NCBI GenBank assembly: GCA_945860645.1
Contig: CAMATG010000002.1
Span: forward strand, 1-50,831
Length of the DNA stretch: 50,831 bases
Direction: 5' to 3'
From: Candidatus Sulfopaludibacter sp. SbA3
Lineage (GTDB): Bacteria > Acidobacteriota > Terriglobia > Bryobacterales > Bryobacteraceae
Part shown: piece after piece, positions 44,549 through 50,831 of the stretch
Numbering within the stretch: the stretch's first letter is position 1
How the letters are laid out: the number at the start of each line of letters is the position of its first letter
Position numbers and translations under genes: made by a program
The notes under the pieces: model-generated
What the model was told of the DNA's origin: nothing
The model's input: only the letters and a program-made list of their open reading frames with translations
Databases searched by the model: none

Positions 44549-44625
<77 letters not shown>

Positions 44626-49016: not shown

Positions 49017-49062
49017 GTATAAATCCCATTATAGAGGCCCCGGCGCCCGCCTGTCCCCAAAC

Positions 49063-49620
49063 CTACGCCCGCCCCGTCCGCGCCCGGTTCATCCCCGCCT
49101 CCAACCCCCGCAGCCGCTCCATCACCTCCCCAAACTCCGGAACCTCCCCAAAAATCATCTCCCCCATCGCGTCATAGTCCCGCCGCAACGCTCCCATCTG
49201 CTCCTCCGGCGGCAGCAGTCGCACCGTCCCCGGTACAGCCAGCTCATACCGAGCCTTCTTATCCGGATAGAACCGCATCTTAAACGCCACCACCTGCGCC
49301 AGCGTCTCAAAATCCCCCGCCGCCATCACCCACGCCTCACTCCCCGCCAGCTGATACAAGTCGTAATAATGCCGCGAATACCGCTCCGGCAAACGGTCCG
49401 GCCGGTGCGCCTGCTGATGCAAAATCGTCACCTTCTCCAAGAAAATTTCCGCTGGTGAGGGATTCTCTGTAATTTTCCATGTGGCGGTACTACTACCTGG
49501 GAGGCTGGGGCGTAGCCTTTGTCGGGCACGATCGAACAGGTGCAGATTAAAGTGACCTTGACGAGGTAGTCGCCGACTTGCCGCTGAATCGGGTGGTCTC
49601 TGCTTGCCGATCATTTTCAA
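49063..49620 (-). pseudogene. Truncated AbiEii/AbiGii-type nucleotidyltransferase toxin (C-terminal part only)
   Basis: SPAEIFLEKVTILHQQAHRPDRLPERYSRHYYDLYQLAG resembles the C-terminal half of AbiEii-type proteins; residues before about TENPSPAE look unrelated and no N-terminal nucleotidyltransferase motif is seen. Confidence 0.6.
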
Positions 49621-49709
49621 GGTGAGCTTGCCTATGCGGTCTGGGCTTACCCGTTTTTCAGGCCGCAGACGTCGGTAGTGCCTTCGGCGTGCGTGCGAAG
49701 GGCGTGTTT

Positions 49710-50696
49710 CTAAAACAGCTTGGGTGGCGGGATAGGGCTATGATTAACCCATGCCGCAATATTAGAGGCGAGATGGATCTTGGCTTCCCGGACTCTGGCA
49801 CTCATCTGCTGGTTGTTAGCTATATCTTCTCGTATTCGATCTAACAACTTCGGGATGTACTCATCTACTATCGAGATCAGTTCTAGATCGATCCCGCCTC
49901 GATCGAGCGATGAACCAAACAATATGTTCTCTATCAAGATGATATGACGATCAGGGAAGTTCAAATGGGTGCTCCAATTGTCTGATTCACCTCCGGCGAC
50001 CATTTTGCGAAGGGCCTTCCTTGCATTCTCCAGATGCCGGTTCTCGACAAAAATGACAGCCATTCCCCCAAAACAAAAATAGTTGCCCTTCTTAGCGCCC
50101 TCCTTGTAATAGTCCAATGCCTTCTGATTATCTTCTCGGACGCCGAATCCAAACCGGTAAATGTCCCCGATTCTTTCATATGCCATTGGTGATCCCAAGC
50201 GTGCGGCGTCCCGATATAGCTTAAGAGCTTCGACGTGGTCCTCAATGTAGCCCTGGAGTCCCAAGTAGTGCTTGTCGGCTTCATCGAGAATTGTGTCCCA
50301 TGGCTCAGCTTTTGGTTCCTCTTCGATAGCAAAGCAGGCGAACTCGGAATCGTCCGGTGTTAAGAGGTCGTCAGTGCGATCAGAGGTGGAAGGACTCGCC
50401 GACAAGCCCGGGTGAATTGCGGCTATTATTTTGATGACATCCGAAACGGACGCTCGGAAGAATTCACGGTTCTCAGACAGTCGAAGTCCCGCGGAAGCCA
50501 GCCTAGTATGCACGAATGCTTCGGCTGCATCACAATCGTGAAAAAAATCCTCATACACGACGATGAAGGGTGTTGCCACGCCGGTAACACCGGACAATTC
50601 GCTCGCCCGATCAGCAGGCTGTCTAGTCGTCTTGCCGACTTTTACCAGTCCAGGCATTGCACTATTCGCCAGTACATAAAGGTATCCAGAAGCCAT
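49710..50696 (-). CDS. GIY-YIG-like (T5orf172/MUG113-type) nuclease domain fused to Sel1-like repeats
   Basis: N-term GYLYVLANSAMPGLVKVGKTTRQPADRASELSGVTGVATPFIVVYEDFFHDCDAAEAFVHTRLASAGLRLSENREFF; Sel1-like YRDAARLGSPMAYERIGDIYRFGFGVREDNQKALDYYKEGAKKGN. Confidence 0.75.
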   Translation of the reverse strand: MASGYLYVLANSAMPGLVKVGKTTRQPADRASELSGVTGVATPFIVVYEDFFHDCDAAEAFVHTRLASAGLRLSENREFFRASVSDVIKIIAAIHPGLSASPSTSDRTDDLLTPDDSEFACFAIEEEPKAEPWDTILDEADKHYLGLQGYIEDHVEALKLYRDAARLGSPMAYERIGDIYRFGFGVREDNQKALDYYKEGAKKGNYFCFGGMAVIFVENRHLENARKALRKMVAGGESDNWSTHLNFPDRHIILIENILFGSSLDRGGIDLELISIVDEYIPKLLDRIREDIANNQQMSARVREAKIHLASNIAAWVNHSPIPPPKLF

Positions 50697-50831
50697 TGGC
50701 GTTGATTATGTCACACGCCGTTCGAAGCGTCATCTGTCTTTGCGGGGAGCGGGGTCATGACCTTCCTTGCGTAATTGAGTATGGGCATATCGGCTACACG
50801 CGCTGGATGCCAGGTGGCTCAGTTGTGTTCT

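Follow-up and report, generated by a model that had tools for sequence, protein, structure and literature searches.

A T5orf172-Sel1 fusion gene at a variable genome site beside serA encodes a candidate single-gene conflict nuclease

The stretch of DNA analysed here (the window, a whole contig of exactly 50,831 bases that ends on the right at position 50831) encodes a protein in which a nuclease domain of the T5orf172 branch of the GIY-YIG superfamily is joined to a Sel1 arm. We propose, with about even confidence, that this protein is a stand-alone, horizontally spread conflict nuclease aimed by its Sel1 arm and working in a SNIPE-like manner, most likely as a single-gene defence against phages or invading DNA. 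The features on which this proposal is based are collected in Table 1.

Table 1. Position of the fusion gene, its predicted parts, and adjoining features in the window
Feature	Position	Strand	Basis
T5orf172 (GIY-YIG)-Sel1 fusion gene, 328 aa, ATG start	49710..50696	-	ORF and translation; Pfam; full-length G005 copy, 66% identical
T5orf172/GIY-YIG nuclease domain, aa 4-94	50415..50687	-	PF10544; PADLOC PDC-S57; invariant residues
Codon of E59, predicted catalytic glutamate	50520..50522	-	Alignment with E180 of ICP1 Odn
Low-confidence linker, probably disordered, aa 97-127	50316..50408	-	pLDDT <50 (AlphaFold2)
Sel1/TPR-like helical solenoid, aa 134-236	49989..50297	-	PF08238; Foldseek; helices with pLDDT ~90
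Divergent C-terminal helices, aa 250-316, no family match	49749..49949	-	AlphaFold2 helices
Possible promoter region just 5' of the ATG, TGTGACATAAT..	50700..50717	-	Common to the G005 relative; role judged by eye
C-terminal remnant of AbiEii-type nucleotidyltransferase toxin gene	49063..49479	-	PF08843, E 1.7e-9, profile positions 137-237 of 238 only
Left junction between the variable insert and the serA side	49046..49063	.	BLASTN end points against L010 and L020; site empty in G004

The original prediction of a fusion between a T5orf172/MUG113-like GIY-YIG domain and Sel1 repeats was confirmed by Pfam matches far beyond chance. For the nuclease domain, PF10544 (T5orf172) gave an E value of 4.2e-14 (53.3 bits against a curated cut-off of 20), and PF13455 (MUG113) matched over the same region (E 2.4e-8). 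The best match in a defence library was the PADLOC model PDC-S57 (E 6.9e-24), residues 2 to 96 of the window protein aligning with positions 4 to 95 of this 212-position model and leaving the remainder of the model unmatched. All the full-length relatives scanned with PADLOC also matched PDC-S57. Alignment of nine sequences, including that of Odn obtained from the ICP1 phage record, revealed that Y7, N11, K19, G21, R30, L34, E59, H63, E78, and F80 are invariant. The catalytic set, which consists of the helix arginine, the metal-binding glutamate, and the branch-specific Y, K-x-G, and H, is present in its entirety in the window protein, against the concern that catalytic residues might be missing. 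Where the classical YIG motif has its first Tyr, the window protein has Lys, a feature shared by the other T5orf172 proteins aligned. E59, in AAEAFVH, aligned with E180 of Odn (the glutamate of DTEQRIH, identified by counting along Odn), and the E180A substitution abolishes the activity of Odn in vivo and in vitro (PMC8263062). The AlphaFold2 model (mean pLDDT 79.5) contains an alpha/beta nuclease domain at residues 4 to 92, for which Foldseek detected predicted viral T5orf172 proteins matching at ~1.3 to 1.6 angstrom over 96 columns. Judged by sequence, the window protein belongs to the T5orf172 branch of the GIY-YIG superfamily; it is a predicted endonuclease with a complete active site, which would be expected to cut nucleic acid.

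In the same model, an all-helical solenoid spans residues 134 to 316. PF08238 (Sel1) matched two stretches of the protein, the best repeat being located at residues 170 to 205 (E 2.1e-8, 34.8 bits against a cut-off of 30.7). Sel1/SLR proteins of the PDB were matched by sequence (E 4e-17) and by Foldseek with the window model (E about 1e-4 [8e-5]), and profile matches in the PDB reached 1.8e-27 when an alignment was used as the query, supporting the presence of Sel1 repeats. With its tandem helix-turn-helix repeats, the window protein counts among the Sel1-like repeat proteins. NCBIfam identities such as MotX and ExoR were rejected, these and the others being Sel1-repeat cross-matches only, far under their cut-offs.

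The GC content of the fusion gene is 0.501, versus 0.625 for the window, and its third-position GC is 0.53. The gene is the lowest-GC stretch of 987 bases in the window (sliding mean 0.626, SD 0.029), which bears out the lower GC content and different codon use that had been noticed in the sequence. The shift in GC is genuine, but the compositional boundary described at this place coincides with the physical contig end. BLASTN similarity to the same-genus locus L010 reaches position ~50716 and then ends. The cumulative GC skew of the window climbs to ~29 kb and then falls steadily; it partly tracks gene orientation and could be a replication landmark.

The order in the window is serA, the AbiEii remnant, and the fusion gene. 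Another genome of the same genus (G005) contains a copy at the same site beside serA, in the order ABC-2 transporter, AbiEi/DUF6088, GIY-YIG-Sel1, and serA. In a third genome of the genus (G004), ~125 bp separate the transporter gene from serA, and the flanks are 96% identical to those of G005, indicating that the site is empty. Neither occupied site contains an intact pair of AbiEi and AbiEii genes, since the window retains only the C terminus of AbiEii and G005 only AbiEi. In family members, AbiEi is directly followed by AbiEii, the latter being ~53% identical to the window remnant, indicating that the fusion gene sits in a ruined AbiE locus. The ~230 bp between the remnant and the fusion gene (49480-49709) have no recognisable coding content, and the G005 counterpart (L010 2441-2780) is unrelated sequence. 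A tRNA-Asp (GTC) gene (44549-44625, minus strand) is located ~5 kb from this variable site.

Comparison of the window and G005 copies revealed a silent-site divergence about tenfold higher for the fusion gene than for the adjacent serA gene (dS ~1.8, which is near saturation, versus 0.18), with a dN/dS ratio of ~0.15 over the full length of the fusion gene. This ratio was 0.06 for the nuclease domain, 0.07 for Sel1, and ~0.28 for the C-terminal part. Sequence identity was 89% in the nuclease domain and 36% in the C-terminal part, which is the fastest-evolving portion of the protein, as would be expected of a targeting region. The combination of a high dS, relative to that of serA, with a low dN/dS suggests that the copies were acquired separately or that alleles were exchanged at a hotspot, selection having maintained the function. 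The fusion gene is under purifying selection and was acquired horizontally at a variable genome site.

The fusion gene is rare and patchy. Distribution counts excluded the centre genomes, which had been chosen for having the fusion gene. On this basis, 2 of the 395 genomes sampled from the phylum contained a full-length copy, as against none of the 398, 161, 348, and 375 genomes in four other, partly overlapping samples. Outside the genus, full-length relatives were detected in two genomes from the phylum of the window (G319 and G134), in a proteobacterial MAG (46% identity), and on plasmids of Nitrosospira (49%), Thauera (37%), and two Deinococcus species (~36%).

The G319 and G134 relatives carry additional modules. 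The G319 protein (L028, G319:C12, 7861-9009) has a C-terminal cold-shock domain (29.5 bits against a cut-off of 27). The G134 protein (L029, G134:C261, 26-2404) contains, in frame with T5orf172 and Sel1, at least three N-terminal S1 domains resembling ribosomal protein S1 (E 3e-52), and its C terminus aligns with the cold-shock domain of the G319 protein at a place where Pfam makes no call. Cold-shock and S1/OB folds can bind ssDNA as well. An RNA or ssDNA substrate is kept as an option because of these two full-length relatives with predicted RNA/ssDNA-binding modules: recognition of a trigger by Sel1 would unleash a GIY-YIG domain that cuts RNA or translating complexes, leading to abortive shut-off or to the degradation of phage transcripts. 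The S1 part of the G134 protein is a divergent second copy, sharing 47% identity with another rpsA-like gene of the same genome, and is for this reason considered accessory. We nevertheless regard an RNA- or ssDNA-directed nuclease as unlikely, since the window protein has neither the cold-shock nor the S1 module, the reading frame of L029 begins at a contig edge with its start cut off and is known from one genome only, and the characterised T5orf172 nucleases, Odn and SNIPE, cut DNA (PMC8263062, PMC13190303). It is rather improbable, in a broader form of this idea, that the T5orf172-Sel1 proteins are a defence nuclease family with interchangeable modules (Sel1; Sel1 plus cold-shock; S1 plus Sel1 plus cold-shock-like) that senses infection at the level of translation or RNA and cuts RNA or ssDNA. 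If this were true, RNA/ssDNA cutting coupled to translation-level sensing would be a new mode for the T5orf172 branch.

Against the proposed defence role, T5orf172 domains are also common in phages, in which they serve phage-parasite conflict or homing. The fusion protein might similarly be a selfish nuclease derived from a phage or a mobile element, engaged in homing-like behaviour or in competition between elements, as Odn is, and carried as cargo without benefit to the host. The T5orf172 domain is indeed frequent in phages (101 phage records and PHROG families) and on plasmids, transposases lie beside some of the copies, and Odn is used by a phage to attack a rival element (PMC8263062). However, neither the 50,697 phage records searched nor the viral contig scans yielded a full-length T5orf172-Sel1 protein. 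Phage and viral matches spanned the T5orf172 domain and covered Sel1 little or not at all; in the viral contigs, a single-protein query gave no match and an alignment query retrieved only T5orf172-domain proteins without Sel1. In addition, the locus showed no intron or intein context, and the same-site copies are very different though their flanks are 95% identical, unlike what simple homing would leave. We hold a selfish origin of this kind to be a doubtful explanation of the fusion gene.

Two proteins with the T5orf172 domain and a different surrounding were noted during this survey. In L034 (G592:C210, 1492-2079), a short T5orf172 protein near the fusion family has a C-terminal CxxC...CxxC zinc-finger/HNH-like motif in place of Sel1. 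On a Vibrio tubiashii plasmid (L055, NZ_CP117031.1, 7992-8648), a domain-only relative is encoded among Hhe, AbiH, and HEPN genes; this locus resembles an integron cassette array, with attC-like sequences discernible by eye between the genes.

The neighbours of the full-length relatives are diverse. On the Nitrosospira plasmid, the copy lies downstream of zorA, MotB-type, EH-signature, and SNF2 genes, at a distance of 670 bp; from their annotation, we take these genes to be arranged as in a Zorya system. The copy on the Deinococcus psychrotolerans plasmid lies among type I restriction genes, a MazEF-like pair, Fic, and an N-6 methylase. The MAG copy (L011) is found near a convergent HTH/Gp49 pair of the HigBA type, its other neighbours being ordinary genes. 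Transposases are found near the Thauera copy, IS21-like genes (read from ORFs) near the G134 copy, and metal-resistance genes near the D. aetherius copy, which is unannotated in its record. In G319, the downstream gene, on the same strand, encodes an unclassified 266-aa protein with a weak, sub-threshold match to the TdeIII restriction enzyme. No more than about half of the full-length loci (5 of 9) have Zorya, type I restriction-modification, HigBA-like, or AbiE neighbours, both AbiE loci being counted and the loci being too few for statistics; the others lie near ordinary genes, transposases, or a cluster for metal resistance. Together with the PDC-S57 match and the AbiE remains, these neighbourhoods support the mobile-element or defence setting that had been predicted; they are not consistently of the housekeeping type. 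In contrast, no support was obtained for the suggestion that a partner gene might lie past the right edge of the window: the contig stops at that point, and each relative has something different upstream (AbiEi, ribA, Zorya, a transposase, or unknowns). No conserved partner gene was detected, no neighbour recurring outside the site shared within the genus, and the fusion protein is for this reason best taken as a single-gene unit.

The AbiE remains might also be read as those of a locus captured by a toxin-like element, in which an upstream regulator of the AbiEi type would control the new nuclease instead of AbiEii. In G005, 41 bp separate the end of the AbiEi/DUF6088 gene from the start of the GIY-YIG-Sel1 gene, the two being on the same strand, and the loss of all but the C terminus of AbiEii from an AbiEi-AbiEii arrangement in the window is consistent with such a replacement. 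Capture is nonetheless distinctly unlikely: the 135 bp preceding the fusion gene in the window contain no AbiEi sequence, the C terminus of AbiEi looks altered in G005, and the reading is weakened further by the absence of an AbiEi neighbour from the other relatives checked. The linkage to AbiE is best explained by shared insertion into a defence hotspot. GIY-YIG domains are present in housekeeping proteins too, e.g., UvrC, and remnant genes (AbiEii) lie nearby, but a decaying relic or a repair-type housekeeping nuclease is the least probable reading and was already disfavoured, since the ORF is intact with a dN/dS of ~0.06 in the catalytic domain and the rare, scattered distribution reported above led us to reject a housekeeping role.

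Returning to the conflict nuclease, we infer its cutting activity, its substrate, the binding target of its Sel1 arm, and its anti-phage function as follows. The N-terminal T5orf172 domain would cut nucleic acid, most likely DNA, belonging to a phage or plasmid that enters the cell. It would be connected by the flexible linker to the Sel1 solenoid and the fast-evolving C-terminal helices, which may together form a sensor or targeting arm binding either an invader protein or a protein of the host that the invader uses. Binding of the arm would then bring the nuclease onto the foreign DNA, much as SNIPE employs its membrane/DUF4041 part.

The literature searched contained no paper linking T5orf172 with Sel1, none naming PDC-S57, none combining GIY-YIG, Sel1, and anti-phage activity, and no experiments on any T5orf172-Sel1 protein. 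The genes of the relatives are not unseen, since plasmid records already annotate them as "GIY-YIG nuclease family protein". The fusion is a rare combination of domains assembled from well-known parts, for which we found no describing paper.

Among known proteins, the Sel1/SLR proteins of Oxalobacter (6ORK), HcpC (1OUV), and LpnE (6DEH) have the Sel1 solenoid in common with the window protein, but their solved chains do not include a nuclease domain. PDC-S57, itself a candidate single-gene phage-defence family of PADLOC, is matched by the T5orf172 domain over the first ~95 positions of the model. Odn (ICP1 gp88/ORF88) shares the T5orf172 domain and the catalytic glutamate, E180, aligned with E59. 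Unlike the fusion protein, Odn is phage encoded, has no Sel1, and is aimed at iterons by a RepA-like DNA-binding domain (PMC8263062). The GIY-YIG domain of SNIPE (PD-lambda-1) belongs to the T5orf172 branch as well. SNIPE cuts phage DNA while it is being injected and depends on E414 for defence against phage lambda, which is lost upon the E414A substitution (PMC13190303). Going by model coordinates, E414 would correspond approximately to E59. The SNIPE models of PADLOC matched some relatives over the domain, among them the Deinococcus protein (1e-8) and a domain-only relative (8e-12), and only marginally the window protein (0.018). Both SNIPE and the fusion protein join a T5orf172-branch domain with a key glutamate, essential in SNIPE, to a module for locating the invader, as is proposed here for the Sel1 arm; both are single-gene systems, the fusion protein as a candidate, and both have relatives scattered over many phyla. 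In SNIPE, the nuclease is C-terminal and preceded by an N-terminal membrane segment and DUF4041, whereas in the fusion protein the nuclease is N-terminal and followed by Sel1. Pfam detected no DUF4041 in the window protein, and no membrane-targeting region precedes the nuclease domain, which begins at residue 4. The fusion protein is therefore not a SNIPE, its domain order being reversed and DUF4041 missing, and the analogy is one of principle only, since the transmembrane and DUF4041 parts are lacking. That principle is established by SNIPE, in which a GIY-YIG nuclease can defend the cell when physically directed to incoming phage DNA (PMC13190303). The Sel1-armed nuclease, together with its cold-shock and S1 relatives, suggests that one cutting module has been repeatedly coupled to different sensors. 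If so, these proteins would form a ready set for studying how a nuclease devoid of sequence or modification recognition separates foreign nucleic acid from self.
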